Shown in pieces: positions 5,935 to 23,363 of a DNA stretch of 38,911 nucleotides. The notes below the pieces were generated by a model that was given only the letters and a program-made list of their open reading frames with translations, had not been told where the DNA came from and did no database searches. The DNA is taken from the NCBI GenBank assembly GCA_002843155.1, contig PGZD01000024.1:1-38911 (forward strand). Direction: 5' to 3'. Both the position numbers and the translations under genes were made by a program. Each line of letters begins with the position of its first letter. Position 1 is the first letter of the stretch. The DNA is from Gammaproteobacteria bacterium HGW-Gammaproteobacteria-3 (lineage in GTDB: Bacteria > Pseudomonadota > Gammaproteobacteria > Methylococcales > Methylomonadaceae).

Positions 5935-5945
5935 CGATGATCCTC

Positions 5946-7041: not shown

Positions 7042-7043
7042 GT

Positions 7044-8747: not shown

Positions 8748-9061
8748 ACCTCAGCCTCCAACGGCGCCATGATTTGCTGGCGAAAACCGTAAACGGCACG
8801 CTTTCCGGCAAGCGCAACCAGGCGAATCGTGCGCGTCTGTCCGGGTTCAAAACGGATAGCGGTTCCAGCCGGAATATCGGGGCGAAAACCGCGTGTTTGC
8901 GCACGGTCGAATTGCAGCGCCGGATTGGTTTCAAAAAAATGGTAATGCGAGCCGACCTGAATCGGACGGTCACCGCTGTTCGCTACCATTATGCTGATGA
9001 CGGTGCGTCCGGCATTCAGTTCAATAGCGCCTTCGGCAGTCAAAATCTCTCCGGGAATCAT
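8744..9061 (-). CDS. ureB: Urease beta subunit
   Basis: Structural subunit of the UreABC trimer. The 105-aa protein begins [19 protein letters not shown] and contains [34 protein letters not shown] and [13 protein letters not shown], all diagnostic. It lies nine bases after ureA and overlaps ureC by four bases. Length and motifs are normal. Confidence 0.97.
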
Positions 9062-9070
9062 AGCCGTTCC

Positions 9071-9373
9071 TTATTCAATCGGGTTATGAACGGTCACCAG
9101 CTTGGTGCCGTCGGGAAAAGTGGCTTCTACCTGTACATCCGGCAACATGTCGGCAATACCTTCCATGACCTCATCGCTATTGAGTAACGTGCGGCCATAT
9201 TCCATCAATTCGGCCACGCTGCGGCCATCGCGCGCGCCCTCGATCACCGCCGCCGAAATATAAGCGACCGCTTCGGGATAATTCAGTTTAAGGCCACGCG
9301 CCTTGCGCCTTTCTGCGAGTAAAGCAGCAGTAAAAAGCAATAATTTATCTTTTTCTCGTGGTGTCAGTTGCAT
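9071..9373 (-). CDS. ureA: Urease gamma subunit
   Basis: Smallest structural subunit of urease, 100 aa. It begins [20 protein letters not shown] and shows [25 protein letters not shown] and [18 protein letters not shown], the near-invariant family segments. It sits between ureD (15-base gap) and ureB (nine-base gap), the usual D-A-B-C order. Confidence 0.97.
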
Positions 9374-9388
9374 AAGCTTTCTCTTCTT

Positions 9389-10240
9389 TCAGGTTGCCCA
9401 AATTCTCGGTGCATAGTCTTCGCGCCGAACGATTCGTAAGCGAATGGCGGCGCGGAAGTTTTGAAAAACCTGTTTGATTTGTTCCGCATTATCGCCGATA
9501 CAGCGACAGATCAATAAATCATCGATCAAGGTAACGCCCTGCCCCGCTGCATCGGCGATCAGATGCCTGACCGCATCCAGATGCTCGGCGGTGGCAGGAC
9601 ACGCGAGCAGGGTGCCGCAGCACGAGTGCCCCTGCAAACCCCAGCGGGCGGCAAACGCCTTCGCATCCAGACGCATTTTCTCTAAAAACAAGGGCTTGCC
9701 GTCACGCAAAATACGCCAATCCAGCAGCGTCTCGCCGGAGCTGAATCCTTCACCGGCGGCGGGCCTGCCCAAAACCACTATATCCCAGCCGATAAAACGG
9801 GCCGTGCCGGCCAACTCAAGCGTCACTTTCGAAGTCAATCGCGCGCCCTGGTAGATGATAGCTTCCTGCGGCAGCCATTCCAGCACCGCGTTTTCTTCAA
9901 TTTTCAGGACGACGCTCTGGCAAGCCCTGGCTCCTGTGCTGCGGTAAAATTTTCCGGCGCCCGGCGTGGTAATCAAGGCTTCGGCATCTGCCGCGACCGT
10001 TACCCCGATCGCCAAGCGGTCGCCCGCCACCACGCCGCCCGGCGGATGCAGTAAATACACATGGCACATAGCGCCTTCGGGATAAAAAGGCCGCTGCACC
10101 GCCAACGGGCCGCGTTGACGCCGGTGCGCCAGCACTGTTTTCGCTGCCCGCCGGGCAAAACCCAGCGTCAGTTCGGCTGCCCAGCCCGGCTGAACGCCGC
10201 TGTCCGCACACGCTGCGCCAGCGCCCGGTTCGGCATACAC
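9389..10240 (-). CDS. ureD: Urease accessory protein UreD
   Basis: Scaffold chaperone that binds apo-urease and recruits UreF and UreG; it has an internal tunnel thought to carry nickel. The 283-aa protein shows the family segments RPFYPEGAMCHVYLLHPPGGVVAGD, LITTPGAGKFYRS, LEWLPQEAIIYQGA and GWDIVVLGRPA. The gene immediately follows ureJ (four bases) and precedes ureA. Upstream in-frame starts are not available without entering ureJ, so the ATG at 10240 is reasonable. Confidence 0.95.
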   Translation of the reverse strand: MYAEPGAGAACADSGVQPGWAAELTLGFARRAAKTVLAHRRQRGPLAVQRPFYPEGAMCHVYLLHPPGGVVAGDRLAIGVTVAADAEALITTPGAGKFYRSTGARACQSVVLKIEENAVLEWLPQEAIIYQGARLTSKVTLELAGTARFIGWDIVVLGRPAAGEGFSSGETLLDWRILRDGKPLFLEKMRLDAKAFAARWGLQGHSCCGTLLACPATAEHLDAVRHLIADAAGQGVTLIDDLLICRCIGDNAEQIKQVFQNFRAAIRLRIVRREDYAPRIWAT

Positions 10241-10244
10241 GCGC

Positions 10245-10832
10245 TCAGGCTCCGGCCAGCAAGAGTACGCCGGTCAAGGTACAAAGCAACGCCATGACAG
10301 TGCCCAGTTTTTTTAACACCAGCGGCCCGAATAAGCCGGCCATCATGCCAAAAGCGTGCAAGGTCAGGGTCGCGGTCAAAAATCCCAACGCATAACGCGC
10401 GGCATTGGCGTCAATGCCCATGTCGGCGCCATGAACATAGCCGTGTCCCAGACCAAACGCGGCCACCAGCGCGATCGCCGTCCCCCGGGTAAAGCGCCGT
10501 CCAAACCTCAACAAAAAACCCAACATCAACACCGAGAACGCCACCCAGATTTCGGCGTTATCAACCGCGACACCGGCCCAATCGAGCAGCGCGCCGCCAG
10601 CCATGGCCAGCAAAAAAGCGAGCGGTAACAGCCACGGACGCCGCCCGCCCAGCAGCACAGCCCAAAGACCTATCGCCGACATGACCAGCAAGTGATCGAT
10701 ACCCGAAAAAGGATGGCTGAAACCTTCGGCAAAGCTCTGTATCGAACCCATGCCGGTGTGGCCATGAGCCGAAAACGACAGTACCGACAGCGCCGGCAAA
10801 CTGAAACCCGCTTTGATTTTGACTATGTTCAT
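10245..10832 (-). CDS. ureJ: HupE/UreJ family nickel permease
   Basis: Membrane protein predicted to bring nickel into the cell for urease. The 195-aa sequence has a signal-like first segment and about six further hydrophobic helices. Both family signatures are present: HPFSGIDHLLVM near residue 40 and FGLGHGYVHG in the central region, whose His and Asp residues are the proposed metal ligands. It lies between urtE and ureD, so nickel uptake is locked to urea import and urease expression. A hydrogenase-linked role is unlikely because no hydrogenase gene is present. Confidence 0.9.
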   Translation of the reverse strand: MNIVKIKAGFSLPALSVLSFSAHGHTGMGSIQSFAEGFSHPFSGIDHLLVMSAIGLWAVLLGGRRPWLLPLAFLLAMAGGALLDWAGVAVDNAEIWVAFSVLMLGFLLRFGRRFTRGTAIALVAAFGLGHGYVHGADMGIDANAARYALGFLTATLTLHAFGMMAGLFGPLVLKKLGTVMALLCTLTGVLLLAGA

Positions 10833-10848
10833 AATGACCTCTTTAAAG

Positions 10849-11622
10849 TTATACCGTTAAATAGTGCTTGACCATGGTTTCGGTCAATTGGGACATTGCG
10901 CCCGCCACCACATTGCGCCCCCGATCCATGATACAGAATTGATTGGCCACTTTACGCGCGAAGGGCAGCTTTTGCTCGACCAGCAGCACGGTAACGCCCA
11001 TCTCCCGGTTGATTCTGGCGATGGCGTCATGGATTTCGGCTTTGTTTTCCGGAGCGGCAGGCGCCGGAATGCCCCGCCCCCGGTTCAGACGAATAATCAC
11101 ATCGCCGATTTCACTGACGATATTCGGTTGAATGCCTTCGGTCGGCTCATCCAGGATCAACAATTTCGGATTAAGCACCAAGGCCCGGCCAATTGCAAGT
11201 TGTTGCTGCTGACCGCCGGACAAATCACCGCCGCGTCGTCCACGCATGTGTTTGAGTACCGGAAAAATCTCATATATCGTTTCCGGTATTTTTTTGATAC
11301 CCAGTTTACGGACCGCGCGCAATCCGGTTTTCAGATTTTCCTCGACCGTCAGTAACGGGAAAATCTCTCGCCCCTGCGGCACATAACCCACGCCCATTTG
11401 CGCCCGCTTTTCCGCAGTCATGGCGGTAATCGGCTGCGTGTCGAGCATGATCGAACCGCTCTGTACCGGAATCAAACCCATGATGCTTTTCAGTAAAGTG
11501 GTTTTGCCGACGCCGTTACGCCCCATCAGACACAGGCAGGTGCCGGTCGGCACGTCCAGGTTCAGATCCCAAAGCGTGTGGCTTTGGCCGTAAAATTGAT
11601 TTAATGCCGTAATCGTCAACAT
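10849..11622 (-). CDS. urtE: Urea ABC transporter ATP-binding protein UrtE
   Basis: One of two ATPases that drive the UrtBC permease. The Walker A GRNGVGKTT (34-42), the signature LSGGQQQQLAIG (from 134) and Walker B LLILDEPTEGIQP (154-166) are intact. At 257 aa it is longer than the roughly 230 aa usual for UrtE. The extra material is an Ala/Pro-rich stretch at about 181-205 (RGRGIPAPAAPENKAEIHD), placed between Walker B and the H-loop region LLVEQ. The reading frame is uninterrupted, so it is a natural insertion rather than an error visible here. Its start codon shares one base with the urtD stop. Confidence 0.95.
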   Translation of the reverse strand: MLTITALNQFYGQSHTLWDLNLDVPTGTCLCLMGRNGVGKTTLLKSIMGLIPVQSGSIMLDTQPITAMTAEKRAQMGVGYVPQGREIFPLLTVEENLKTGLRAVRKLGIKKIPETIYEIFPVLKHMRGRRGGDLSGGQQQQLAIGRALVLNPKLLILDEPTEGIQPNIVSEIGDVIIRLNRGRGIPAPAAPENKAEIHDAIARINREMGVTVLLVEQKLPFARKVANQFCIMDRGRNVVAGAMSQLTETMVKHYLTV

Positions 11623-12440
11623 CAGTCCCCCAGATAAACCTGAATGACACGCGGGTCATTCTGAATTTCGTCCATAGTGCCTTCGGTCAATACCGAACCC
11701 TCATGCAAAACCGTGACTTTATGGGCAATCGAGCGCACGAATTCCATATCGTGCTCGACCACGACTACCGAATGTCTGCCGCGCAGCGACAGCAACAATT
11801 CCGCCGTGCGCTCCACTTCCTGATGGGTCATGCCCGCCACCGGTTCATCCACCAGCATCACTTTCGGCTCCTGCATCAGCAATATGCCGATTTCCAGCCA
11901 TTGTTTTTGTCCGTGCGAGAGAAACCCGGCCTGTTGCCGACGATGCAGGGATAAATCGATAAGGTCCAGGACCTCATCGATACGGTCGCGTTGCGGCCCG
12001 CTCAATTCGGCAAACAGCGTCGTCCAGGCGCCTTTTTCCGCATTCATGGCCAGTTCCAGATTTTCAAACACCGATAGTTTGTCGAAGACGCTGGGTTTTT
12101 GAAACTTCCGGCAAATACCCGCCTGGGCGATGGCCGGTTCATCCATTGCCAGCAAATCGATGTTTTGCCCGTAATACACCGAGCCGCTGTCAGGCCGGGT
12201 TTTGCCGGTGATCACATCCATCAATGTGGTTTTACCGGCGCCATTAGGCCCAATCAGACAACGCAGCTCGCCGTCGTTAATATACAACGACAGATTATTC
12301 AAGGCTTTGAAACCGTCGAAACTGACGCTGACCTCTTCCAGATACAACGCTACGCCGTGTTTGACATCGACAGGGGCGGAGACGACCGGCCCCCTGACAA
12401 AATCGAACGTATGGTAACGGTCAATAAAAGCGTTGTTCAT
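11622..12440 (-). CDS. urtD: Urea ABC transporter ATP-binding protein UrtD
   Basis: Second ATPase of the urea importer, LivG-like. The 272-aa protein carries Walker A GPNGAGKTT, the UrtD-typical signature LSHGQKQWLEIGILLMQ, Walker B VMLVDEPVAGMT and the H-loop VVVVEHDMEFV. SFDGFKALNNLSLYI and RCLIGPNGAGKTT are characteristic of UrtD. The N-terminal 25 residues are an extension before the ABC fold, common in this family. It overlaps urtC by four bases and urtE by one. Confidence 0.96.
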   Translation of the reverse strand: MNNAFIDRYHTFDFVRGPVVSAPVDVKHGVALYLEEVSVSFDGFKALNNLSLYINDGELRCLIGPNGAGKTTLMDVITGKTRPDSGSVYYGQNIDLLAMDEPAIAQAGICRKFQKPSVFDKLSVFENLELAMNAEKGAWTTLFAELSGPQRDRIDEVLDLIDLSLHRRQQAGFLSHGQKQWLEIGILLMQEPKVMLVDEPVAGMTHQEVERTAELLLSLRGRHSVVVVEHDMEFVRSIAHKVTVLHEGSVLTEGTMDEIQNDPRVIQVYLGD

Positions 12441-13528
12441 AGGCCGGCCCTCCCGGTTTTACGCAACCATAAACCCATCAAACCATCCGGCAGCATAACC
12501 GTGACCACTATGAACACCGCGCCCAACGTGAATAACCAGATTTCCGGTAACAGGCCAGTCAGCACGGTTTTGCCGTAATTGACCAAAATAGCGCCGATAA
12601 TCGCGCCGTACAAAGTGCCGCGACCACCCACCGCCACCCAGACCACGATTTCCAATGAATTGAGCGGCGAAAACTCACCCGGATTGATGATGCCGACCTG
12701 CGGCACATACAAGGCGCCGGCAATACCGGCCAGCATCGCGGCAAAAACAAAAACCCATAATTTGAACATTTCCACCCGGTAGCCCAAAAAACGCACCCGT
12801 GATTCCTGATCGCGCAAGGCCGTAACCACACGACCCAGCTTGCTTTGCATCAGTCGGCGGCAAGCCAGGAAAGCCGCAATCAGAGCCGTACCGGAACTCA
12901 TCAACAGCATGATCCGCGTGCTATCCGCTTGCAGGTTGAAGCCCAGCAGCTCCTTGAAATCGGTCAAACCGTTGTTACCGCCGAAGCCCATTTCATTCCG
13001 GAAAAAAGCCAGCATCAAGGCATAAGTCAAAGCTTGCGTGATGATGGACAGATACACGCCGGTCACTCGGGAACGGAACGCCAGCCAACCGAAGACAAAG
13101 GCCAGCAACGCGGGCACGGCCAGCATCATCAACAACGCGAAAGGGAAATAATCGAAACCCAGCCAATACCACGGCAATACCTGCCAATCCAGAAACACCA
13201 TGAAATCGGGCAATAGCGGATCGCCGTAGACGCCGCGTGTCCCAATCTGGCGCATCAGATACATGCCCATGGCATAGCCGCCCAGTGTAAAAAAAGCCCC
13301 CTGGCCCAGTGCCAGAATACCGCAGTAACCCCAAACCAGATCCAGCGACAGCGCCAACAAGGCAAAAGTCAGATATTTGCCGATCAAAGAAACGCTGTAA
13401 GCGGAAAAATATAAAGGCGAACCCGGCGGAAAAATCAGGTTGCACAAAGGAATGATCAAGGTCACGGCAGCCAGCACCGCTACGATGGCAGCACTTTCTG
13501 AATCGTTGGCAAAAAATTTAAGTCGCAT
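12437..13528 (-). CDS. urtC: Urea ABC transporter permease UrtC
   Basis: Inner-membrane permease of the LivM type that pairs with UrtB. The open frame extends back to 13774, but the first 82 codons overlap urtB out of frame, are rich in Trp and Cys and look like shadow coding. I therefore start at the ATG at 13528, one base after the urtB stop, giving MRLKFFANDSESAAIV and 363 aa, the usual length. Some ten hydrophobic segments follow. The LivM signature is present around GYCGILALGQGAFFTLGGYA and in VPQVGIINPGEFSPLNSLE. The C-terminus overlaps urtD by four bases. Confidence 0.95.
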   Translation of the reverse strand: MRLKFFANDSESAAIVAVLAAVTLIIPLCNLIFPPGSPLYFSAYSVSLIGKYLTFALLALSLDLVWGYCGILALGQGAFFTLGGYAMGMYLMRQIGTRGVYGDPLLPDFMVFLDWQVLPWYWLGFDYFPFALLMMLAVPALLAFVFGWLAFRSRVTGVYLSIITQALTYALMLAFFRNEMGFGGNNGLTDFKELLGFNLQADSTRIMLLMSSGTALIAAFLACRRLMQSKLGRVVTALRDQESRVRFLGYRVEMFKLWVFVFAAMLAGIAGALYVPQVGIINPGEFSPLNSLEIVVWVAVGGRGTLYGAIIGAILVNYGKTVLTGLLPEIWLFTLGAVFIVVTVMLPDGLMGLWLRKTGRAGL

Positions 13529-13529
13529 A

Positions 13530-15188
13530 TCAGGCCTCCGCCGCGCGACCTTTTTGCGGAAACAATCCGCGCGGCCGTTTCTGAATGAACAGAATAATAA
13601 ACACCAACACCAGAATCTTGGCCAATACCGCCCCGGCAAAAGGTTCCAGCACTTTATTGGCAATGCCCAGTATAAAACCCGCCACCAGCGTGCCCCAAAG
13701 ATTGCCGACACCGCCGAACACCACCACCATGAAGGAATCGACGATATAAGCCTGGCCCAGATTCGGCCCGACATTGGTGATCTGGCTCAGCGCCACGCCG
13801 GCAACACCGGCGACTCCCGAACCCAAACCAAAAGTCATGGCATCGACCCGTGCGACAGGAATGCCCATGGCCTTGGCCATGTTACGGTTTTGCGCCACTG
13901 CCCTGACTTCGAGCCCCAGACGGGTGCGCCTCAAAATCTGCAACAGCAGCGTGAACACCAGTAAGCAAAAAATAAATATATACAAACGGTTCCAGGTTAA
14001 CGACAGATATTCGTTGACTTGCCAGGAACCGCTCATCCAGTCCGGCGCGGTCACGCTTCGGTTTAACGGTGAAAAAATGGAACGCACGGTCTGCTGCAAA
14101 AACAGGCTGACGCCGAATGTCGCCAATAATGTTTCCAAAGGCCGTCCGTACAGAAAACGAATAATGCCGCGTTCAATCACGATACCGGTCAGACCGGAAA
14201 TGATGAAAGCCAAAGGAATCGACAACAACAGCGCCAGCCCCAAATAATTCGGCAAAATCTGCTGCATTACATAAGTCGTGTAAGCGCCCAGCATCATCAA
14301 TTCGCCGTGCGCCATGTTGATAACGCCCATGACACCGAAAGTAATGCTCAATCCGATTGCTGCCAAAACCAGCACCGCGCCCAGGCTCAAGCCAAAAAAT
14401 ACGGTCTCCGCCGCCGCATAAAATTGCAGGCGGGCCTCTATTTTGACCAATGCCGATTTTGCCAGCTTGAGCACCTGTGCGTCCTGTTCCGGATAGCCGC
14501 CGTTGGCGTCTTTTCGGGTCAATGCCCGCAAGCGGTTCAAAGCCTCCGGACTGGTTTGCCGATTGAGTGCTTCGAGCGCCGCGAGGCGTAAAGCCCTGTC
14601 ACTGCTGTCCAGATCCTGCAAGGCAAAAGTCAGTTGCAAAGCCTGTTGGATGGCGGCGTCGTTTTCTCGCAGCGATTGGTCTTTGAGCAAGGATAAGGTT
14701 TCATCGTCCGGGTTTTTACCCAGATCCCTGACTGCATTCAATCTGATTTCCGGATCTGTAGCCTTTAATTGCAAAAGGGCGATGCTCATGCGCAGTTGCG
14801 AGCGCATTCGGTTGGTAAGATTTATCCTGTCAAGCCTTGAAGATTCGACAGCCGCCAAACTGTCGCCGGTATCGGCTTGCCAAAGCCGATAGCCGCCATT
14901 TTCTGTTTCACCGATAACGAGCCTTCCGTCGTTTTTCAAGACGAAAAGATTGCCTTTCAATAAGGCCTGTAAAACGGTGAGCGTTTGCGGATGCCGAATC
15001 TGCGCGAAGCGTTCGATGGCCCGGCCGCGTTGCGATAAAGGTGAATCTTTCAAAGCTGTCAAGGCCTCTGAAAATGACGGCACGGTAACGCCCGGCTCCA
15101 CTGCCTGTGCCTGGGCTGCAGCCGATAGCGCCAATGCCGGAAAAATCAATAATTTCACTATGTTCGCCAGTAATCGATGCAATTTCAT
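13530..15188 (-). CDS. urtB: Urea ABC transporter permease UrtB with N-terminal periplasmic domain
   Basis: LivH-type permease of the urea importer, 552 aa. I start at the ATG at 15188 (GGAAG five bases upstream) rather than at the frame opening at 15278, which would overlap urtA. Residues 1-30 are a signal peptide (LLANIVKLLIFPALALSAAA). About 30-260 form a soluble helical domain with HEAT-like Leu/Ala repeats (VRDLGKNPDDETLSLLKDQ). The permease follows from about 265, with GVMGVINMAHGELMMLGAY, VERGIIRFLYGRPLETLLAT and VVVFGGVGNLWGTLVAGF. The N-terminal domain is usual for proteobacterial UrtB and may contact UrtA. Upstream, a hairpin separates it from urtA. Confidence 0.95.
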   Translation of the reverse strand: MKLHRLLANIVKLLIFPALALSAAAQAQAVEPGVTVPSFSEALTALKDSPLSQRGRAIERFAQIRHPQTLTVLQALLKGNLFVLKNDGRLVIGETENGGYRLWQADTGDSLAAVESSRLDRINLTNRMRSQLRMSIALLQLKATDPEIRLNAVRDLGKNPDDETLSLLKDQSLRENDAAIQQALQLTFALQDLDSSDRALRLAALEALNRQTSPEALNRLRALTRKDANGGYPEQDAQVLKLAKSALVKIEARLQFYAAAETVFFGLSLGAVLVLAAIGLSITFGVMGVINMAHGELMMLGAYTTYVMQQILPNYLGLALLLSIPLAFIISGLTGIVIERGIIRFLYGRPLETLLATFGVSLFLQQTVRSIFSPLNRSVTAPDWMSGSWQVNEYLSLTWNRLYIFIFCLLVFTLLLQILRRTRLGLEVRAVAQNRNMAKAMGIPVARVDAMTFGLGSGVAGVAGVALSQITNVGPNLGQAYIVDSFMVVVFGGVGNLWGTLVAGFILGIANKVLEPFAGAVLAKILVLVFIILFIQKRPRGLFPQKGRAAEA

Positions 15189-15215
15189 AGCGGCTTCCGA
15201 ATGATGAATGATGGC

Positions 15216-15247
15216 GGCCGGAACCTGACTTGCGTATTGCTCCGGCC
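15216..15247 (-). terminator. Stem-loop in the urtA-urtB gap (partial terminator or mRNA stabiliser)
   Basis: Perfect arms GGCCGGA (15216-15222) and TCCGGCC (15241-15247) surround an 18-base loop in the 68-base gap after urtA. No U-tract follows. Hairpins after the first gene of transporter operons commonly raise the amount of binding protein relative to permease; that role is inferred here. Confidence 0.45.
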
Positions 15248-15256
15248 CGGTGGGTA

Positions 15257-16570
15257 TCAATAATTTTGACCGGAACACTTTTTAGTTTCGGTGTTGTAGT
15301 TGCCGCAACTGATAGGCGCTGTCCAATCGGCTATAATCGGCTTACTTTCCGGCAGAAAATCCGACCAGGCATCGCCTTTAACCAGGGTATTGGTTTGCCA
15401 GACGGTCAGAAATTGTCCATCCTCCTGAATTTCACCGATCAATACCGGTTTGCTGATGTGATGATTCGGTAGCATTTGCGCCACACCACCGCTTAAGTTA
15501 GGCGTTTTAATTCCGATAATGGCTTTTTGTACGGCTTCCGGGTCGGTAGTACCGGCTTTTTCCACAGCTTTGACCCACATGTTGAAACCGATGTAATGCG
15601 CCTCCATCGGGTCATTGGTGACCCGTTTCGGATTCTTGATATAGTCATGCCATTGCTTGATAAATGCGGCATTTTTAGTGGTATCCACACTCATGAAATA
15701 ATTCCAGGCGGCCAGGTGACCGACCAATGGCTTGGTATCCATGCCGGAAAGCTCCTCTTCCCCGACTGAAAAAGCAATGACCGGAATATCCTCCGCCGAC
15801 AAGCCCTGATTACCCAGCTCCTTGTAGAAAGGAATATTGGCGTCGCCATTGATGGTGGAAACCACAGCCGTTTTCTTGCCGCTGGCACCGAATTTCTTGA
15901 TCTCGGCGACGATGCTTTGCCAGTCGGCATGACCGAACGGCGTGTAATTGATCAGGATGTTCTTGGCATCCACGCCTTTGGCTTTCAGATAAGCTTCCAG
16001 AATCTTGTTGGTGGTGCGCGGATAGACATAATCGGTACCGGCCAGCACCCAACGCTCGGCCTTGATGTCATTCATCAGATAATCGACTGCCGGAATCGCT
16101 TGCTGATTGGGTGCGGCGCCGGTGTAGAATACGTTTTTGGACGATTCTTCACCTTCATATTGCACCGGATAAAACAGCAAACCGTTCAATTCTTCAATAA
16201 CCGGCAACACCGATTTGCGCGACACCGAAGTCCAGCAGCCAAAAATTGCCGCAACTTTGTCCTTGGTCAGCAATTCCCTGGCTTTTTCGGCGAACAACGG
16301 CCAGTTGGAAGCGGGATCGACGACCACGGCTTCGAGTTTCTTGCCGAGCAAACCGCCTTTTTTGTTCTGCGCATCGATCAACATCAGCATCGTGTCTTTC
16401 AGTGTAGTCTCACTGATCGCCATGGTGCCGGACAGTGAATGCAGAACACCCACCTTGATGGTGTCTTCAGCGCTTCTGGCAGATCTCATGCCGACAATGC
16501 CGAGTGCGGTAATCAATAACAGTGCCCACATAGCACTGGATACGCCGGTTTTGCGTAAAAAGTGTGTCAT
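15257..16570 (-). CDS. urtA: Urea ABC transporter substrate-binding protein UrtA
   Basis: Periplasmic binding protein that captures urea for UrtBCDE. The 437-aa sequence begins with a signal peptide (KTGVSSAMWALLLITALGIV...RSAEDT), followed by the LivJ/AmiC-type two-lobe fold. Diagnostic UrtA/FmdD segments are KVGVLHSLSGTMAISE, FGCWTSVSRKSVLPVIEE, LLFYPVQYEGEE and GAAPNQQAIPAVDYL. An AGGAG ribosome-binding site lies seven bases upstream of the ATG. Binding of short-chain amides such as formamide instead of urea is possible for this family, but the adjoining urease genes argue for urea. It is 25 bases downstream of the porin gene. Confidence 0.96.
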   Translation of the reverse strand: MTHFLRKTGVSSAMWALLLITALGIVGMRSARSAEDTIKVGVLHSLSGTMAISETTLKDTMLMLIDAQNKKGGLLGKKLEAVVVDPASNWPLFAEKARELLTKDKVAAIFGCWTSVSRKSVLPVIEELNGLLFYPVQYEGEESSKNVFYTGAAPNQQAIPAVDYLMNDIKAERWVLAGTDYVYPRTTNKILEAYLKAKGVDAKNILINYTPFGHADWQSIVAEIKKFGASGKKTAVVSTINGDANIPFYKELGNQGLSAEDIPVIAFSVGEEELSGMDTKPLVGHLAAWNYFMSVDTTKNAAFIKQWHDYIKNPKRVTNDPMEAHYIGFNMWVKAVEKAGTTDPEAVQKAIIGIKTPNLSGGVAQMLPNHHISKPVLIGEIQEDGQFLTVWQTNTLVKGDAWSDFLPESKPIIADWTAPISCGNYNTETKKCSGQNY

Positions 16571-16595: not shown

Positions 16596-17825
16596 TTAAA
16601 TTTGCCATTGGAAATTCAGATTGATGGCGTTGACTTCGTCGCCCGAAGCGGTGGACGTGAAATCCTGGCCTTTGGTCAGCAAGTCGCCGTATTGCCAGCT
16701 CATCGACACGCGGGCATTGTGGCCGTCTATCACATAGTTGACGCCCGCCTCATAAACATCACGGTTGGAACTGGTGTCAGGCTTGACATTGACGTAGCGG
16801 ACGAACGGTTGCACCTGGCCTATCCACAGCTTTTGCGGAAACAAATACATGCCGCTGACATCATAGGCATCGCCGTCGAAAATCTGGAAGCCGCCGCCCG
16901 CATCGCGGGACGCCTGACTGAAACCGGAAGAAACCTGGTAATTTTTATATTCACCGTTGAAGGTCAGAACACCGTCATTAGCCAATACTTTTTCCAGCAA
17001 GAAATCGACCGTGGTACCCCGAAAATCGCCCGCATCGGCCTTCGTACCGGCGCCATCTTCCTGATACTGATTCGAGACCGCAACGGTCAAAATATCGCCG
17101 CCTTTGCCGTAGTAAGTGCCCGAAGTGTAATAGCCGGGGTTTTTCTCCACTTCCCAGAAGTTATAGGCAACTCGTTGAGCATAAAGAATATTATCATCGA
17201 CATTGGCGCCGTCGCGCAGGCCCCGGAAAAAACCGACGGCATATTGCAGCCTGCCCGCAAAAAAAGCACCCCAGATGGTGGCGCCGTCGTCACGCCCGAA
17301 AGAACCGGCGGATGTGCCGTCGGATTTGATGGTCAGACTAGAATCGGCCGGTTCAAACGGCGTACCGGAACTGAAAATATTGTACACGGCACTGTAGAAC
17401 GGCCCGTTCATTTCGCGGCGCTCGGCCGGCACCAGCATGCGCCCGGCCCAAACATTAAACATCGGGTGTAACTCGAATTTACCGATGGCATCCAATACCC
17501 GCACTTCACCGCCATCACTACAGGTCTGGCAATCGGTGTTGAATTCCACTTTGATGTATTCGTGGATTTGCCCGTTTAAATACAAACGAATATTATCCAG
17601 ATTGAAGTCATTGCTATATTTATCCCCGGAAGCCCCGGCGCTGTCTTCGATGGCCCGAAAACTGGTACGCAGTCCGACGCCGATACTCAGCCATTTGGTT
17701 TCATCGATTTTAAAAGTGGCTCCGGCCTCGGCCAACGGCGTGTAAGCACTCACCGCCGTCAGTGCGAGCAGCGACAACGGTTTCAAATAACGCCGGTTCA
17801 CGGCGCACTGTGTCAATTTACTCAT
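16596..17825 (-). CDS. Outer-membrane porin associated with urea uptake
   Basis: Predicted beta-barrel channel for urea or short amides, first gene of the urea block. I start at the ATG at 17825, nine bases after GGGGGGA, giving a signal peptide (RRYLKPLSLLALTAVSAYTPLAEAG) and 409 aa; the open frame reaches back to 17870. The body shows alternating polar/aromatic strands and porin-like segments LSIGVGLRTSFRAIED, LDNIRLYLNGQIHEYIKVEF and AGRMLVPAERREMNGP, as in phosphate-selective-porin-like (OprO/P) families. It ends in a strand terminating WQI. One pair of Cys (CQTC, about residue 100) is unusual for a porin. Similar FmdC-type porins accompany amide/urea transporters; substrate assignment rests on context. 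Confidence 0.85.
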   Translation of the reverse strand: MSKLTQCAVNRRYLKPLSLLALTAVSAYTPLAEAGATFKIDETKWLSIGVGLRTSFRAIEDSAGASGDKYSNDFNLDNIRLYLNGQIHEYIKVEFNTDCQTCSDGGEVRVLDAIGKFELHPMFNVWAGRMLVPAERREMNGPFYSAVYNIFSSGTPFEPADSSLTIKSDGTSAGSFGRDDGATIWGAFFAGRLQYAVGFFRGLRDGANVDDNILYAQRVAYNFWEVEKNPGYYTSGTYYGKGGDILTVAVSNQYQEDGAGTKADAGDFRGTTVDFLLEKVLANDGVLTFNGEYKNYQVSSGFSQASRDAGGGFQIFDGDAYDVSGMYLFPQKLWIGQVQPFVRYVNVKPDTSSNRDVYEAGVNYVIDGHNARVSMSWQYGDLLTKGQDFTSTASGDEVNAINLNFQWQI

Positions 17826-17855
17826 GATTGGAAATCCCCCCGAAAATTCAGCGAA

Positions 17856-17874
17856 GCCCATGAAGAACATGGGC
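17856..17874 (-). promoter_or_regulatory. Leader hairpin before the porin gene
   Basis: GCCCATG (17856-17862) and CATGGGC (17868-17874) form a perfect 7-bp stem with a 5-base loop, 31 bases upstream of the porin start codon and upstream of its ribosome-binding site. It would be transcribed if the promoter proposed at 17917-17945 is right, and may stabilise the long mRNA. Confidence 0.4.
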
Positions 17875-17916
17875 GACCAGCCCCCGGCTTTTGACTAACA
17901 GCGCCGGTTGGGAGTG

Positions 17917-17945
17917 ATTATTTTGGCTACGGGAATTTTGCACAA
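17917..17945 (-). promoter_or_regulatory. Candidate promoter of the porin-urt-ure block
   Basis: On the minus strand TTGTGC (17940-17945) and AATAAT (17917-17922) are separated by 17 bases. The -10 is good and the -35 weak, which would suit an activated promoter. No sigma-54 GG-N10-GC motif was found in this gap. Confidence 0.35.
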
Positions 17946-17947
17946 TG

Positions 17948-17975
17948 CGTCATCTGACTGATCAGTCAAATGACG
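17948..17975. promoter_or_regulatory. 28-bp palindromic operator candidate in the divergent promoter region
   Basis: A perfect 14-bp core TGACTGATCAGTCA (17955-17968) is flanked after one mismatched position by CGTCAT (17948-17953) and ATGACG (17970-17975). Only one base pair of 14 is imperfect. It abuts the proposed -35 of the porin/urt promoter (centre about 50 bases upstream of the expected start site, an activator position) and precedes a TATAGT (17976-17981) on the other strand. A dimeric regulator site is the likeliest reading. Confidence 0.6.
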
Positions 17976-18035
17976 TATAGTCAAAAAAAGCGGGAAGATT
18001 TAGAGTGATCCTTACACAAAAAGGAAACTTGACCC

Positions 18036-18839
18036 ATGCGATTAATACAGCTTAAGGCTTATCCAATGCGCTCACTGAAAGCGGCTTTGAAGTTGGCGAT
18101 GCTGGCTTTGGCCCTGACCGGCTGCGCCACGACAAGCGATAACAAAGCCGGCGGGTTCGAGTCCGATAAAGTGGGCCTTATGCTGTTCGATTTCAATCCG
18201 GGCGCGCCATTATTTGGCGTGGCGGTACCGGAAAAAGCGGTATCTGCACAAGTTGCCGACAATCTGTCGGCATCGGGTTACGCCATCACAACGTCGGACA
18301 GTGAAAACTATAGTCACATTGTGACGGTTAAAATGGGTTCGATTGGACACGGCCCGACACCGACAGGCTTTTCTTTCAGCGCGGGCAATTCCGACCCGCG
18401 CGCCATCGATTATCAAAAAACCGATGTTTTACCGATGACTTGTGTACTAACGTCAAAAGATCAGCTGCAACAACACGCGGAATTGACCTTGTCCTTTGGC
18501 GCCGAAGATTATTTACGCGCACTCAGACAAACCGCGCCATCCGAACAATGGCTCAGCCAGTGGGCGGATGACATGAGCACGGTTTGTTTTAATCTGCTGA
18601 GCCAGTTGCATCTGGCGACACCGCGTAAACTTGAAGTTGAAAAAAATTCGACGCCCCACTGGGCACCCGCCATCGAAGTGGAAATTGAAAATTCCGCGCC
18701 GCAGGCAAAACCCGGCGTCCATGCGACCGAAGAACAAGCCGTCGAAGACAAAAAAGTGCTGTCCGAACCCCGCAAGCGCATCATTATTCACAATCAAGGC
18801 TCGCCGGTTATTTTTACTTTCGGTCACGAGCGAAAATAA
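18036..18839 (+). CDS. Putative lipoprotein of unknown function
   Basis: I do not recognise the family. The N-terminus is a lipoprotein signal peptide with the lipobox LALTGCAT, so the protein should be anchored in a membrane facing the periplasm. If translation starts at the ATG at 18066 the signal is a textbook 19 residues (MRSLKAALKLAMLALALTG). The ATG at 18036 has a slightly better ribosome-binding site (AAGGA) but gives a long signal. The mature part is about 235 aa with no obvious motif and a Glu/Lys/Pro-rich, low-complexity stretch near the C-terminus. It is transcribed away from the porin gene across the palindromic region, 172 bases before the permease-kinase, so it may be a periplasmic companion of that system; this is conjecture. 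Confidence 0.75.
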   Translation: MRLIQLKAYPMRSLKAALKLAMLALALTGCATTSDNKAGGFESDKVGLMLFDFNPGAPLFGVAVPEKAVSAQVADNLSASGYAITTSDSENYSHIVTVKMGSIGHGPTPTGFSFSAGNSDPRAIDYQKTDVLPMTCVLTSKDQLQQHAELTLSFGAEDYLRALRQTAPSEQWLSQWADDMSTVCFNLLSQLHLATPRKLEVEKNSTPHWAPAIEVEIENSAPQAKPGVHATEEQAVEDKKVLSEPRKRIIIHNQGSPVIFTFGHERK

Positions 18840-19011
18840 ACGCCGCACTCGATGGGTGCAAAAAAAACAGGCTCTGCACACTTATTGGGCACGCGCGCGG
18901 AGTCCCTGCGCCAATGCTTCAGGAGAAGCCTCGCCGCAGACACAGCTTTGCATTCAGGTATGAATTTTGCCTGTTTAATGTTTTCACCTTCATCAGTGAC
19001 TTTCATTCCCT

Positions 19012-22000
19012 ATGGCTTTTGCCGTTCATCAACGCGTCTCGAAAATCCGCCGCGATTATAATGCCTGGGTGGCCAACGAAACGCTGGAAGATTACGCCTT
19101 GCGCTTTGCCCCGCGCACATTCCGCAAATGGTCCGAATTTCAGGTTGCCAATACCGCATTCGGTTCCACCTCTTTTCTGGTGCTTGAAGCCATCGGCGGT
19201 TTTTTGTCCGTTAACTACGGCTTCACCAACGCTTTTTGGGCCATCATCACGGTCGGCCTGATCATCTTTATCATCAGTTTTCCGATCAGTTATTACGCCG
19301 CCCGTCATCATATCGATTTTGATTTACTGACGCGCAGCGCCGGTTTCGGCTATTTAGGCTCGACACTTACGTCGCTGATTTACGCTTCTTTCACGTTTAC
19401 GCTGTTCGCGCTCGAAGCTTCGATCATGTCGTTGGCCATCGAATTGTATTTATCGATACCGATCGCACTGGCTCATGTCATCAGCGCGCTCATTGTCATT
19501 CCGCTGGTCACTTTCGGTATTACCACCATCAGCCGCTTGCAGCTCTGGACCCAACCCGTGTGGTTGCTGCTGCTGTTTATTCCGTATTACGCCGTCATCA
19601 CCCAGGAACCGGAAGCACTGCTGACGCTTAAAGCCTATTTCGGCATTGTCGGCAGCGGCCAGGGTTTTGACTGGCTGTTGTTCGGTAGCGCCGCTACCAT
19701 GGCTTTTTCGATGGTGGCGCAAATCGGTGAACAAGTCGATTTTTTGCGTTTCATGCCGGAAAAAAAAGCCCACAACCGTTTCCGCTGGTGGGCGGGCACC
19801 ATTATCGCAGGTCCTGGTTGGATAATTTTCGGCATGGCCCGGCAACTGGGCGGCGCATTGCTCGCTCATCTGGCCATTCAGCAGGGCATCGCCCCCGAAC
19901 ACGCGCACGAGCCGACGCAAATGTATTTCGTCGCTTACAGCAAAATAATCACCGATCCCGGCTGGGCATTGGGAATAACCGCTGTCTTTGTCATCATTTC
20001 CCAGCTCAAAATCAATGTCACCAATGCTTATGCCGGTTCACTGGCCTGGTCCAATTTTTTTTCGCGTCTGACCCACAGCCATCCGGGGCGCGTCATCTGG
20101 CTGTTATTCAATGTCGCCATCGCTCTGCTGTTGATGGAATTCGGCGTATTCGGGGCGCTGGAAAAAGTTCTGGGGCTGTTTTCCAATGTCGCCATTGCCT
20201 GGATCAGCGTGGTGGCGGCGGAATTATTGATCAACAAGCCGTTGGGCCTGAGTCCGAAAGTCGTGGAATTCAAGCGTGCTTATTTGCCTGACCTGAACCC
20301 GGTAGGAACGGTCTCGACACTGTGCGCGTCGATTATTTCGATACTGGCGTATATTGGCGCTTTCGGTCACTATGCCCAGGCTTTTTCCGCTTTTATTTCT
20401 TTGGCGCTGGCCTTCATGCTGGCGCCCGGCATCGCTTGTTTGACGCATTACCGGCATTATCTGGCTCGCGCCCGCCATTACAAGCATGACGTTTCGCCGC
20501 GACAGTGCAGTATTTGTGAAAACCATTTCGAACATGAGGATATGGCCTATTGCCCGGTCTACAGAGGCGCTATCTGCTCACTCTGCTGCTCGCTGGATGC
20601 GCGTTGTCTGGATGCCTGCAAGCCTGGCGCACGGCTGGATGATTATCTGGAAAAATTCGCCCGTTGCTGCCTGCCCGCATCGATGCGGCTGAGTTCGAGA
20701 TTGCGCTTACTGCGCTTTGCTTTATCGTTTGTTTTTTTAAGCACCTTGACGGCCATTTTTATCGGCATTATCTATTACCAGGATTTACTGTACGCGCGGC
20801 AGCACCCGGCATCGTTTCATCTGTTATTCGATAATTTTTTCAAAGTTTATTGTTCACTGCTGGTCTTTATCGGTTTGAGCACCTGGTGGTTGATTTTAAA
20901 TCACGAAAGCCGACGTGTGGCGCATGAGGAAACCGCCAGACAAACCCAGTTATTGCTGACGGAAATAGAAGAGCACAAAAAAACCGACGCCAAATTGCAA
21001 CAGGCCATGAAAACTGCGGATAATGCCAACAGCGCCAAAAGCCGTTTTTTGAGCAATATGAGTCATGAAATACGCACACCGCTGAACTGCATTGTCGGCT
21101 ATTCGCATATTCTGCATAACGACCCTTCCTTGCCGCAACACCGGCGTGAGGCGGTGACCATCCTGAAGCGCAGTGGCGAGCATTTAGCCGCGTTGATCGA
21201 GGATATTCTGGATATTGCGGGCATTGAAGCGCGCAAATTCGATCTGCGCTACGCGGCCTTTGATTTTCCGGATTTTATAGAGCATCTGGTCAGTGTTTTC
21301 AAAACTCAGGCAGAAGACAAAGGTCTGAGTTTTCATTGCCAGGCGGACACGCCCCTGCCGAAAAAAATTCGCGGCGACGAAAAACGTATCCGGCAAATAC
21401 TGATCAACCTGCTCAATAATGCCGTCAAATTTACCGATGCCGGTGACATCATCTTGCGCATTGGCTATCGCGGTGAAGTCGCCACGTTTCAGGTCATCGA
21501 CAGCGGCGAAGGTATCGCTGAAAAAGAACTCGAATTGATATTTCAGCCTTTCATCCGGCTGGGCCAGACAGCAGGCAAGTCCCAGGCAGGCAGCGGTCTG
21601 GGACTGACTCTCAGCAAGATTTTAACCGAATTGATGGGCGGCGAATTGACTGTGGTCAGCCGCCCCGGGCACGGTTCGACGTTTACCGTGCGGTTACTGC
21701 TCGCCAATCTGAAAAACATCGCAAAGCCTTTGCAAGAAGCCAATATTATTGGTTTTCAGGAGCCGTCCAGGAATATTCTGGTAGTCGATGACCAGCCTGA
21801 ACAACGCAATCTGCTCGCCGCTTTGCTGGAGCCTTTGGGTTTTCATGTAGCCCGCGCCGAATCAGGCGAAGCGTGTTTACTGCAAGTGGCGCATACTTTG
21901 CCTGACCTGATTCTGCTCGATTTGACCATGGCAGGCATTAGCGGCATCGAAACCGCCAAAAGGCTGCGCCGACAAAAGCGGGCGATGCCGATACTGGTAA

Positions 22001-22437
22001 TCAGCGCCAACGCTTATGCCGGTGATCGGCAAGCCGCAATTACTGCGGGCTGCAACGATTTTTTGGCAAAACCGCTGCAAATCGGCGAACTGCTGGGGAA
22101 ACTTAAATTACACTTGCATCTGAACTGGATTTATGAAGACAAAACATTTGAACCCGTCAAAACACCGACAAGCGGCGCAATGATCATACCACCGCCCAAC
22201 GTCATCGCCCAATTGCTGGACCATGTACAAATAGGCGACATACTGAACCTCAAGCTGTCTCTCAATGAACTGATAAAATCCGAATCCGGTTACCGGGATT
22301 TCGCGCTTCGCATCAGAAACCTGGCGACTGAATTTCGTATCGCAGACATTAAAAAAACTCTTAACGCCCACATTGCAGCGGACGCCCTTTATCGGGACAA
22401 ACCTGCCATCCCGGTGACTGACAAGGGGACAAGCTGA
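19012..22437 (+). CDS. NCS1 permease-like / cysteine cluster / hybrid histidine kinase fusion
   Basis: A 1141-aa membrane sensor. Residues about 15-485 are a full NCS1 (cytosine/purine/allantoin permease) domain with about twelve helices: LEDYALRFAPRTFRKWSEF, then GEQVDFLRFMP and LKINVTNAYAGSLAWSNFF. Next comes a cytosolic cluster of eight cysteines at 499, 502, 514, 522, 525, 526, 532 and 536, probably metal-binding, and two further helices (about 568-590, 608-628). The kinase follows: phospho-acceptor His685 in NMSHEIRTPLN, N-box INLLNNAVKF, G1 DSGEGI and G2 GSGLGLTLS. A receiver domain has phospho-acceptor Asp970 in LILLDLTM. About 90 helical residues end the protein. The permease part likely binds or moves the signal molecule; urea, allantoin or a pyrimidine are candidates. 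The regulator gene is two bases downstream. The ribosome-binding site is weak. Confidence 0.9.
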   Translation: MAFAVHQRVSKIRRDYNAWVANETLEDYALRFAPRTFRKWSEFQVANTAFGSTSFLVLEAIGGFLSVNYGFTNAFWAIITVGLIIFIISFPISYYAARHHIDFDLLTRSAGFGYLGSTLTSLIYASFTFTLFALEASIMSLAIELYLSIPIALAHVISALIVIPLVTFGITTISRLQLWTQPVWLLLLFIPYYAVITQEPEALLTLKAYFGIVGSGQGFDWLLFGSAATMAFSMVAQIGEQVDFLRFMPEKKAHNRFRWWAGTIIAGPGWIIFGMARQLGGALLAHLAIQQGIAPEHAHEPTQMYFVAYSKIITDPGWALGITAVFVIISQLKINVTNAYAGSLAWSNFFSRLTHSHPGRVIWLLFNVAIALLLMEFGVFGALEKVLGLFSNVAIAWISVVAAELLINKPLGLSPKVVEFKRAYLPDLNPVGTVSTLCASIISILAYIGAFGHYAQAFSAFISLALAFMLAPGIACLTHYRHYLARARHYKHDVSPRQCSICENHFEHEDMAYCPVYRGAICSLCCSLDARCLDACKPGARLDDYLEKFARCCLPASMRLSSRLRLLRFALSFVFLSTLTAIFIGIIYYQDLLYARQHPASFHLLFDNFFKVYCSLLVFIGLSTWWLILNHESRRVAHEETARQTQLLLTEIEEHKKTDAKLQQAMKTADNANSAKSRFLSNMSHEIRTPLNCIVGYSHILHNDPSLPQHRREAVTILKRSGEHLAALIEDILDIAGIEARKFDLRYAAFDFPDFIEHLVSVFKTQAEDKGLSFHCQADTPLPKKIRGDEKRIRQILINLLNNAVKFTDAGDIILRIGYRGEVATFQVIDSGEGIAEKELELIFQPFIRLGQTAGKSQAGSGLGLTLSKILTELMGGELTVVSRPGHGSTFTVRLLLANLKNIAKPLQEANIIGFQEPSRNILVVDDQPEQRNLLAALLEPLGFHVARAESGEACLLQVAHTLPDLILLDLTMAGISGIETAKRLRRQKRAMPILVISANAYAGDRQAAITAGCNDFLAKPLQIGELLGKLKLHLHLNWIYEDKTFEPVKTPTSGAMIIPPPNVIAQLLDHVQIGDILNLKLSLNELIKSESGYRDFALRIRNLATEFRIADIKKTLNAHIAADALYRDKPAIPVTDKGTS

Positions 22438-22439
22438 AA

Positions 22440-23363
22440 ATGACTGGAAACAAGCCGCAGGTGAAGGCTACCGTTCTGATTGTCGATGACACCCCGGGAA
22501 ACCTCGCGATGCTGTCCGATCTGCTGTTCGCTGAGGGTTTTCGCGTTTTGGTCGCCACCGATGGCGAATCCGCCCTGGAGCAAATTGACGCACTTAAACC
22601 GGATATTATTTTGCTGGATGTAATGATGCCCGGAATCAACGGTTTTGAAACCTGCCGACGCCTTAAAAACCAGTCAGCGACCATGAGCATTCCGGTTATT
22701 TTCATGACCGGTTTAAGCGAACTCGATAAGCTGTTGCAAGGTTTCGGCGAAGGCGCGGTCGATTATATTGTCAAACCGTTTCACCCGACGGAAGTCCTGG
22801 CCAGAGTCCGCGCGCACACGGCACAGGCCCGGCATTTACAAAGGGCGCAGACAGCGCTGAATGACGTCGTTTTTGCCCTTCTGGCATTCGACAGTTCCGG
22901 CTTGATCACCTGGCTTACACCCAGCGCGGTCGAGGTATTGGAACAAAGTTATGCCGAATTTGATAATTCGGTTCATAACCTCTCAATTGGCGCTTGTCTG
23001 CCCAACTCTTTACACTGGCTCAAAGCACGGGCATCGGCGTCCGGCACGGCTCATCAAACATTCAGTATCGGCAACGATTTTTCCGGCAGACTATTACCGA
23101 GCCGCAACCAGGACGAATATCTGTTGCTGATGCAACAAGTTTCCAGGCACTGGAATCTCGGCGTCCTGAAAACGGCCTATGGTCTGACTGCCCGGGAAGC
23201 TGAAATACTGACGTGGATTGCCAAAGGCAAAACCAACAAGGAAGTGGGTTTGATACTGGCAACAAGCCCTCGTACCGTCAACAAACATCTGGAACACATT
23301 TTTGAAAAACTGGGCGTTCCCACCCGAACCGCAGCGGTCGCCAAAGTGCTGGACAGCGGGTAA
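22440..23363 (+). CDS. LuxR/NarL-type response regulator with central PAS-like region
   Basis: Transcriptional regulator of 307 aa and the probable output of the permease-kinase encoded two bases upstream. The receiver domain (about 10-130) has the acidic pair Asp16/Asp17, phospho-acceptor Asp60 in IILLDVMMPG, and Lys112 in YIVKPF. Residues about 140-235 are a PAS-like segment (VVFALLAFDSSGLITWLTPSAVEVLEQ), uncommon in NarL-type regulators. The C-terminus (247-307) is a LuxR-type helix-turn-helix: LTAREAEILTWIAKGKTNKEV and TSPRTVNKHLEHIFEKLGV. Its target is not shown by the sequence; the palindrome at 17948-17975 is the obvious candidate site. Confidence 0.9.
   Translation: MTGNKPQVKATVLIVDDTPGNLAMLSDLLFAEGFRVLVATDGESALEQIDALKPDIILLDVMMPGINGFETCRRLKNQSATMSIPVIFMTGLSELDKLLQGFGEGAVDYIVKPFHPTEVLARVRAHTAQARHLQRAQTALNDVVFALLAFDSSGLITWLTPSAVEVLEQSYAEFDNSVHNLSIGACLPNSLHWLKARASASGTAHQTFSIGNDFSGRLLPSRNQDEYLLLMQQVSRHWNLGVLKTAYGLTAREAEILTWIAKGKTNKEVGLILATSPRTVNKHLEHIFEKLGVPTRTAAVAKVLDSG

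Follow-up and report, generated by a model that had tools for sequence, protein, structure and literature searches.

The regulatory system described here lies in a stretch of 38,911 nucleotides (below, the window) that makes up positions 1 to 38,911 of contig PGZD01000024.1 of Gammaproteobacteria bacterium HGW-Gammaproteobacteria-3 (GCA_002843155.1; Methylomonadaceae), and it comprises a hybrid histidine kinase, the response regulator gene that follows it, and a palindromic operator in front of a porin-urtABCDE-ureJ-ureDABCEFG block. We consider it likely, although well short of certain, that a urea sensor kinase with an NCS1-fold domain and its regulator switch on urea uptake and urease through this operator, which has two units. 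Control of the urea block by the pair is well supported by comparison between genomes, based on gene linkage, on an operator common to urt and, in two genomes, to a distant kinase operon, and on the NarL-type form of that operator. The kinase probably detects urea and, in related bacteria, formamide-type amides. The elements of the proposed switch are as follows.

17946..17977, no strand, operator of two abutting 7-2-7 sites (sequence, and conservation in relatives)
19012..22437, forward strand, NCS1-fold hybrid histidine kinase of 1141 amino acids (Pfam, structure model, fold and profile comparison)
22440..23363, forward strand, response regulator of 307 amino acids with REC and LuxR/GerE domains (Pfam), starting two bases past the kinase stop

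The HisKA (residues 675-740), HATPase_c (788-897) and REC (922-1031) domains of the kinase core all passed the Pfam cut-offs, with the motifs SHEIRTPL from residue 684 and LILLDLTM from residue 966, and together with the adjoining REC-GerE regulator they place the protein among the hybrid kinases of two-component systems. In front of this core lie an NCS1 domain (about residues 24-480), an eight-cysteine domain (499-536) and two helices (560-595 and 599-645). Pfam and a phmmer search of PDB sequences found nothing in residues 1-646; PF02133, the Pfam model of NCS1, gave no match to the window kinase at E<=10 and none to any of 77 family members at E<=0.1; and hmmsearch with the family profile against PDB returned two weak zinc-finger-like chains near the cysteine domain (E 1.5 and 4). 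Since these sequence searches were silent, the NCS1 label was decided by fold and profile. An AlphaFold2 model of the N-terminal part, built from an alignment of 77 sequences (A2: the window kinase, 19 loci from the range L010-L038 and 57 from the 80 scan loci described below), had a predicted local distance difference test score (pLDDT) of 86.3 and a predicted template modelling score (pTM) of 0.86. The first five Foldseek matches of the model were CodB and Mhp1. In VIA, CodB reached Z 34.8 with 397 of 400 residues aligned at a root-mean-square deviation of 3.2, and Mhp1 26.4-29.5, while other LeuT-fold families stayed at or below 24.7. The rows of solute-sodium-symporter type fell well below NCS1 (urea carrier DUR3 23.6, sialic acid symporter 22.9), so that the domain is not an SLC5 transporter domain. 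With hhalign, the family aligned to 19 NCS1 sequences over 391 columns (probability 98.9, E 1.3e-17), and CodB alone, as a single sequence, aligned just over transmembrane helices (TM) 1-4. The NCS1 alignment held CodB and 18 PF02133 matches from 25 NCS1 loci; L222 was tried and excluded, and L218, L225 and L227-L230 were unused. By model and by profile, then, the N-terminal domain is of the NCS1 fold, on a branch outside Pfam's model. The original prediction of an NCS1 permease fused to a hybrid kinase, on which Pfam alone is silent, and of a LuxR-type regulator two bases downstream was therefore correct.

The linkage of this kinase was investigated in three samples. Among 61 close genomes, own included, a homologue was found in 32 and a close orthologue (>=60% identical) in 27, one of them partial at a contig end. 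Urt genes lay in the stretch taken in 16 of these 27, a urt-like/fmd-type operon in 1, and the other 10 stood apart from urt or on short contigs. Scanning genome contigs yielded at least 580 related loci, of which the best 80 were retained; by record title these belong to Methylococcales, Pseudomonas, Burkholderiales, Rhodocyclales, cyanobacteria and others. In a phylum sample of 398 genomes, drawn evenly to avoid choice by similarity, 55 genomes had a match (own included), 3 of them by short partial matches only. Because three candidates were scored per genome, the 63 places listed may miss extra copies. Up to 20 kb were taken around each of 56 places, with 18 family codes. The remaining places were the window's own locus, a second fragment of the G449 gene, and partial matches in G253 (C40), G296, G254 (two) and G348. 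We found that 54 of the 56 held urt/ure genes (17) or the formamidase gene fmdA (37) within 20 kb, and the remaining 2 were cut by contig ends. The majority of the 37 FmdA loci (35) also carried a urtABCDE-like set, and 20 an aliphatic amidase as well. By arithmetic with assumed gene numbers, about 0.6-3.6% of random 20-kb stretches would be expected to overlap an operon of this kind; as the sampled loci share ancestry, no combined probability is drawn from the counts. Loci whose 'urtA' is 40% identical are of the amide type: FmdA adjoins two such examples (760 and 768 bits), and an aliphatic amidase (710 bits) was identified at one. A matching regulator gene adjoins the kinase in most relatives' loci looked at. 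The gene-neighbourhood check proposed in the original prediction thus revealed conserved linkage, contrary to the outcome that it had named as refuting.

The palindrome at 17948-17975, predicted earlier as a near-perfect dyad of 28 bp, matches in 13 of its 14 pairs. Dyads of 12 of 14 pairs occur at two more places of the window among the matches listed, so that dyad quality alone is unremarkable, and it is the conservation in relatives that makes the palindrome real. From its sequence it reads as two abutting regulator sites of the NarL type, each of two inverted heptamers two bases apart: unit A (17946-17961) is TGCGTCA-TC-TGACTGA and unit B (17962-17977) is TCAGTCA-AA-TGACGTA. NarL, likewise a GerE-type regulator, prefers inverted heptamers two bases apart, 16-bp sites with TAC...GTA ends as here (engineered site TACCCCTAAAGGGGTA; PMC4549865). 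The differences are that the heptamer here is TACGTCA, that the units stand in abutting pairs in the window and in 22 further genomes, and that the window regulator has the longer linker.

A consensus drawn from the relatives' sites, CGTCAWWTRACTSATSAGTYAWWTGACG, was sought at up to 3 mismatches in the 61 genomes and gave 26 sites in 23 genomes, one or two copies per genome, against none for the reversed-pattern control. In most cases (22 of 26) the site preceded a close urtA by about 1.3-1.6 kb, which places it in front of the porin. The other four were found in G004, whose assembly shows no urtA; in G024, about 1.9 kb before a urt-like operon; and in G023 and G029, two genomes with separate kinase and urt loci, as a second copy before the kinase (G023) or before the lipoprotein-kinase-regulator operon (G029). 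Counting sites of one or two units, all 27 close-orthologue genomes carried the operator, 26 of them (all but G004) before porin/urtA, including those with kinase and urt apart. The two-unit reading predicts a single unit in relatives without the double site, and all four have one between porin and lipoprotein: TACGTCATTTGACTGA in G025 and G057, a site one mismatch from TACGTCATTTGACTGA in G058, and TACGTCAAATAACGTA in G052. In the kinase-less genomes G003, G030 and G053, which have urtA and enough upstream DNA, no site with up to 1 mismatch was found before porin/urtA; in kinase-less G020, G050 and G006 the contigs end near porin or urtA, and these genomes fall outside the operator comparison.

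The same grammar was found at amide-type loci, where the gap between kinase and urtA holds TACGTCA-N2-TGACGTA, and the one-unit site TACGTCANNTGACGTA stands before amide-type kinases. A strict consensus drawn from L125-L204 and tested on L231-L286 (some genera may sit in both) matched 19 of 37 amide-type loci when up to 3 mismatches were allowed, compared with 5 of 740 shuffles, and 3 of 18 other loci. The looser symmetric form TACGNNN-N2-NNNCGTA, at up to 2 mismatches within 450 bp of the kinase, was present in 57 of 66 amide-type loci (shuffles 4.5%) and in 3 of 3 loci of one small urea clade (shuffles 13%). Its count of 0/15 in Methylococcales reflects an operator that lies farther out than 450 bp, behind the lipoprotein gene, where so arranged. 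Among 32 distinct sites, variability was greatest at the N2 spacers and two other positions, which the search pattern already permitted to vary. The sites therefore have the 7-2-7 form of NarL/FixJ operators, weakly so in some urea clades.

The positions of the sites also agree with activation. The tetramer ATTG or ACTG follows the operator by 2-5 bases on one side in all 32 sites, in the window the porin side; it was used to orient the sites, so that its 'porin side' place is partly by construction, but its one-sidedness in all 32 is not. On this side AATAAT, AACAAT or AAAAAT occurs at 23-36 in 25 of 32 sites, and the window has TTGTGC-17-AATAAT. On the opposite side a -10-like hexamer TANWST occurs at 21-36 in 20 of 32 sites, in the window as TAGAGT. 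The predicted promoter elements are as follows.

17917..17945, reverse strand, predicted porin-urt promoter (-35 TTGTGC 17945-17940, 17 bp, -10 AATAAT 17922-17917)
18001..18006, forward strand, putative -10 (TAGAGT) for the lipoprotein-kinase-regulator genes, a weaker prediction than that on the porin side

With a start assumed seven bases past each -10, at about 17910 on the reverse and 18013 on the forward strand, the predicted centre of unit A lies at about -43.5 for the porin-urt promoter and that of unit B at about -43.5 for the lipoprotein-kinase-regulator promoter, which on each side is the position of an activator touching polymerase. Each unit is thus predicted to sit at the activator position of its own promoter; the 7-2-7 sites of NarL lie at -40 to -49 (napF) and -38 to -47 (yeaR) (PMC4549865). 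The divergent region with its palindrome had been described in the original prediction, but the kinase is not directly behind the palindrome, since a lipoprotein-like open reading frame (ORF) at 18036-18839 had been overlooked.

Based on these results, we propose a mechanism in which ligand, phosphotransfer, binding and direction of control are predictions, set upon a computed fold, gene linkage, operator conservation and co-occurrence. Urea would enter the periplasm through the porin and bind the NCS1-fold domain. As the domain order suggests, a change of shape would then pass through the eight-cysteine domain and the two helices to the kinase core, which, as is usual in this family, would send phosphate to the adjoining LuxR/NarL-type regulator. 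Judging from the form of the site and its co-occurrence with the kinase, the phosphorylated regulator would bind 17946-17977 as two dimers and activate both divergent promoters, those of the lipoprotein-kinase-regulator genes and of porin-urtABCDE-ureJ-ureDABCEFG. The predicted outcome is induction of urea uptake and urease by the substrate, with positive feedback, and in relatives of other clades the same scheme would serve formamide and short-chain amides.

What the NCS1-fold domain might bind was approached through the pocket residues of the 77 sequences. In the hhalign register, the sodium site of CodB, described as Thr278 and Thr279 (PMC9379551), corresponds to Lys333 (77/77) and Ile334 (76/77, Val in 1), so that the Na2 site of NCS1 carriers is replaced. 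The aromatic pair Trp108 and Phe204, said to sandwich the substrate in CodB and to be conserved throughout NCS1 (PMC9379551), is also missing. The position of Trp108 is Phe in 53 sequences, Leu in 24 and Trp in 0, and the TM6 position, whose local register is uncertain by a few residues, is Ser/Ala (233) or Met/Leu (234) and aromatic in 0/77. Invariant in all 77 are Gln237, Glu240, Gln241, Asp243 and Arg246 of TM6 and Asn335, Thr337 and Asn338 of TM8. With the clamp lost, the pocket as read from the alignment fits a small, ring-free amide and disfavours purines. The original prediction had offered urea or a purine breakdown product as the signal for activating the urea block; its first half, including control of the block, agrees with linkage and operator, while the purine half is not supported. 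NCS1 carriers transport nucleobases, hydantoins and allantoin, and this family knowledge speaks for a product such as allantoin. However, the clamp Trp has been replaced in all 77 sequences, neither likely TM6 position is aromatic in any, and the neighbours are formamide, amide or urea genes, with formamidase genes beside 37 of the 56 sampled relatives, so that we regard a purine signal as hardly credible. Allantoicase gave no match in 37 genomes, but the controls failed as well and the result was not used. These alignments and neighbours suggest small amides as the probable ligand class, with urea in some clades and formamide in others.

The eight cysteines of residues 499-536 are likewise invariant in the 77 sequences, and are followed by the two helices and HisKA. 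Modelled alone, this domain had pLDDT 78.4 and pTM 0.51, a best Foldseek E of 0.47 and a best VIA Z of 4.3; many of the weak matches were RING, FYVE, PHD or ZZ fingers, and others were ribosomal proteins. The models thus give a hint only of a zinc domain. It occupies the place of STAC in the SLC5 kinases and is weakly RING/FYVE/ZZ-like, STAC itself not having been searched directly.

A quick tree was built of 168 N-terminal domains, in which long branches are joined, so that the number of urea/amide switches is rough. Neighbour labels cluster on it: 36 changes were counted compared with a shuffled mean of 87.8, and none of 200 shuffles was as low. Five urea-neighbour groups, namely Methylococcales, a beta-proteobacterial group and three small groups (stems 0.71, 0.97 and 0.72), are scattered among the amide type, and we read this as several changes of ligand on the kinase tree. 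In an exploratory, post-hoc specificity scan, position 399 was changed in 4 of the 5 urea groups and six positions, 57 among them, in 3 of the 5.

Other explanations of the same circuit have to be weighed. The signal may be different, either formamide and short-chain amides generally or ammonia and nitrogen status, with urt as one target; the many formamidase genes beside the sampled relatives agree with this, as do the L039 and L138 kinases of the window's own urea clade, which are close to a urt-like/fmd-type operon instead. However, the tree shows several changes of partner operon and long stems leading to some urea clades, which is what an accompanying change of ligand would produce, and the conserved neighbours are genes for substrate-specific uptake and hydrolysis (ammonium genes were not looked for). 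We therefore take a different signal to be possible but doubtful. Similarly tentative, and slightly less probable, is a true transceptor. In this case the kinase would itself move urea or amide through the membrane, as CbrA does with histidine, and would sense either the transport or a signal in the cytoplasm. In its favour, the NCS1 fold is complete, and an invariant Lys stands at the Na2 Thr position; a lysine also occupies the Na2 site of CbrA, whose transport relies on the proton motive force (PMC13022988). On the other hand, a dedicated ATP-binding cassette (ABC) importer is encoded alongside the kinase. It is also conceivable that another regulator binds the palindrome and that kinase and regulator merely lie nearby and act on other targets, considering that binding by the regulator is predicted and that the beta-proteobacterial urea clade has no clear operator. 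We judge this very unlikely, because the operator accompanies the orthologue in 27/27 genomes, is missing (up to 1 mismatch) from 3/3 testable kinase-less genomes with urtA, occurs in one or two copies per genome, and in two genomes also stands before the unlinked kinase or its operon.

Several observations nevertheless weigh against a urea sensor kinase acting through this operator. Ten of the 27 orthologues do not adjoin urt, and kinase-less genomes also show weak operator matches (2 mismatches, 12-base pattern), including one that precedes the G053 porin by about 1.2 kb. The looser symmetric form is weak in the beta-proteobacterial urea clade (9/39; shuffles 2.4%), in two small urea clades (1/5 and 0/2 within 450 bp of the kinase) and in unlabelled loci (1/4), and the strict consensus is absent from most kinase-ureA gaps of urease-linked beta-proteobacteria. 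Amide and urea clades have, in the alignments, the same invariant and most conserved pocket residues and differ at few positions, as would also be expected with a different signal, and the assignment of urea to the window's clade is drawn from neighbouring genes. Finally, the transporter domain of CbrA is said to be non-essential for signal perception (PMC9100948), so that the NCS1 domain need not be the sensor. 

Carrier-kinase fusions as such are already known: CbrA, CrbS and RpuS are built on SLC5 and KsAmt5 on Amt. In CbrA, CrbS and RpuS a LeuT-fold transporter domain is fused to a kinase as here (PMC13022988, PMC9100948), the SLC5/STAC kinases of Sinorhizobium are of the hybrid type, and a LuxR-type regulator gene adjoins that of RpuS, as here. 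They differ in having SLC5 with STAC (and PAS) instead of NCS1 with an eight-cysteine domain and two helices, and in their neighbours, which here are urea/amide genes. The Lys in place of the Na2 sodium, shared with CbrA, lies on TM6 in CbrA numbering and on TM8 here by alignment. KsAmt5 likewise reuses the fold of a nitrogen-compound carrier as a histidine-kinase receptor, in its case Amt and ammonium and here NCS1 with urea/amide genes (PMC8534201). CodB and Mhp1 (PMC9379551) share the fold and profile homology with the NCS1 domain of the window protein, which in contrast is fused to a kinase core, has lost the sodium-site threonines and the aromatic clamp, and escapes Pfam recognition. On the side of the target genes, the fmdCABDEF cluster of Methylophilus methylotrophus is also a block of porin, amide/urea ABC uptake and hydrolase genes; formamide and urea both induce it, so that one receptor may see both, and the review speaks just of a putative positive regulator, neither two-component nor sensor occurring as a word in its text (PMC10781810). 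For Pseudomonas veronii, which grows with formamide and acetamide as substrates and carries a cluster of this kind, a 2026 paper likewise points to the amide type of such loci, and its main text contains neither histidine kinase nor two-component as a term (PMC13209695). The ammonia sensor GrtK/GrtR of Burkholderia glumae, described with a PilS-like domain (PMC12918730), was not taken as related. In the open-licence literature, with most subscription papers outside its scope, we found no description of an NCS1-type or comparable two-component sensor of urea or amides, and the two-component family for urea and short-chain amides is apparently both widespread and undescribed. 

The genes of the urea block confirm the earlier labels and are listed below, together with the lipoprotein-like ORF.

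16596..17825, reverse strand, outer-membrane porin, first gene of the urea block (frame open from 17870, start at 17825 likely)
15257..16570, reverse strand, urtA, urea ABC transporter binding protein (TIGR03407, 568.9 bits, cut-off 492.75)
13530..15278, reverse strand, urtB (TIGR03409 above cut-off, model match from residue 291)
12437..13774, reverse strand, urtC (TIGR03408 above cut-off, model match from residue 120)
11622..12440, reverse strand, urtD (TIGR03411 above cut-off)
10849..11622, reverse strand, urtE (TIGR03410 above cut-off)
10245..10832, reverse strand, ureJ (HupE/UreJ, PF04955)
5317..10240, reverse strand, ureDABCEFG (Pfam UreD, urease gamma, urease beta, UreE, UreF and CobW/HypB/UreG; ureC by NCBIfam)
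18036..18839, forward strand, lipoprotein-like ORF of 267 amino acids between palindrome and kinase ('lipoprotein' judged by eye from the N-terminus)

UrtA-E all pass the curated NCBIfam cut-offs and represent the UrtABCDE urea transporter; urtC itself probably starts farther downstream than its open frame does. UreJ, D, A, B, E, F and G pass the Pfam cut-offs and UreC that of NCBIfam. The porin has one NCBIfam match, porin_ExtI, at 95.8 bits (below the cut-off of 150), and its place in front of urtA is conserved in relatives. The lipoprotein-like ORF is without a Pfam match; copies 26-41% identical adjoin porin and/or kinase in relatives, and none was found at E 1e-10 among the 56 phylum-sample loci. 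In G003, which has urtA and no kinase match, a lipoprotein-like gene (26% identical; L291:2627-3439) is also divergent from the porin, with no operator site of up to 1 mismatch in the gap. A convergent neighbour at 23472-25496 (reverse strand) has Cache-like regions (dCache_1 44 bits, cut-off 45) and no Pfam output domain.

Some relatives depart from the common arrangement. Homologues at L044, L045, L046 and L050 (G015, G016, G034 and G008) are about 50% identical in the N-terminal domain and lie in longer frames of 1305-1544 amino acids. The 20 kb taken there yielded neither urt nor ure nor fmd genes, and perhaps these homologues combine the same receptor with other outputs. A frame of 552 amino acids at G253:C40:97996-99345 matches the N-terminal domain only (150 bits) and is possibly a kinase-free relative. 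The hybrid kinase at L287:4357-6213 (G348) is without the transporter domain and keeps a cysteine motif resembling the end of the eight-cysteine domain; the gene before it resembles, by eye, an iron-type alcohol dehydrogenase. At G036:C2:2027435-2029936 urtA matches in two pieces though operator and kinase are kept, owing to a broken gene or a sequencing error. Moreover, 533 plasmid records match the N-terminal part of the kinase, 342 of them Klebsiella by organism name, under generic or misleading names ('ATP-binding protein', 'hybrid histidine kinase', 'ArcB'). On one IncFIB/IncFII plasmid (L296, NZ_CP025457.1 70889-90799), amid insertion sequences, a formamidase-urtEDCBA operon and the kinase-regulator pair point away from each other, and the gap between them contains TACGTCATTTAACGTA; the formamidase is 37% identical to AmiE and is not FmdA.

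For the family as a whole, comprising at least 580 loci, the balance tilts slightly toward an NCS1 carrier that was turned into a membrane receptor for urea or formamide, the smallest amides, with loss of its sodium site and nucleobase clamp, that switched several times between the two, and that largely kept its regulator and 7-2-7 grammar. The receptor part of this family is without a Pfam domain, and with it NCS1 would join the carriers reused as receptors. The repeated change of urea/formamide partner makes the choice of ligand in the NCS1 fold testable by domain swaps. A concrete sensor is thereby offered for a known response, the substrate induction of formamide and urea uptake; if true, this would be the missing inducer-sensing system of urea/formamide uptake operons across Pseudomonadota, present also on Klebsiella plasmids.

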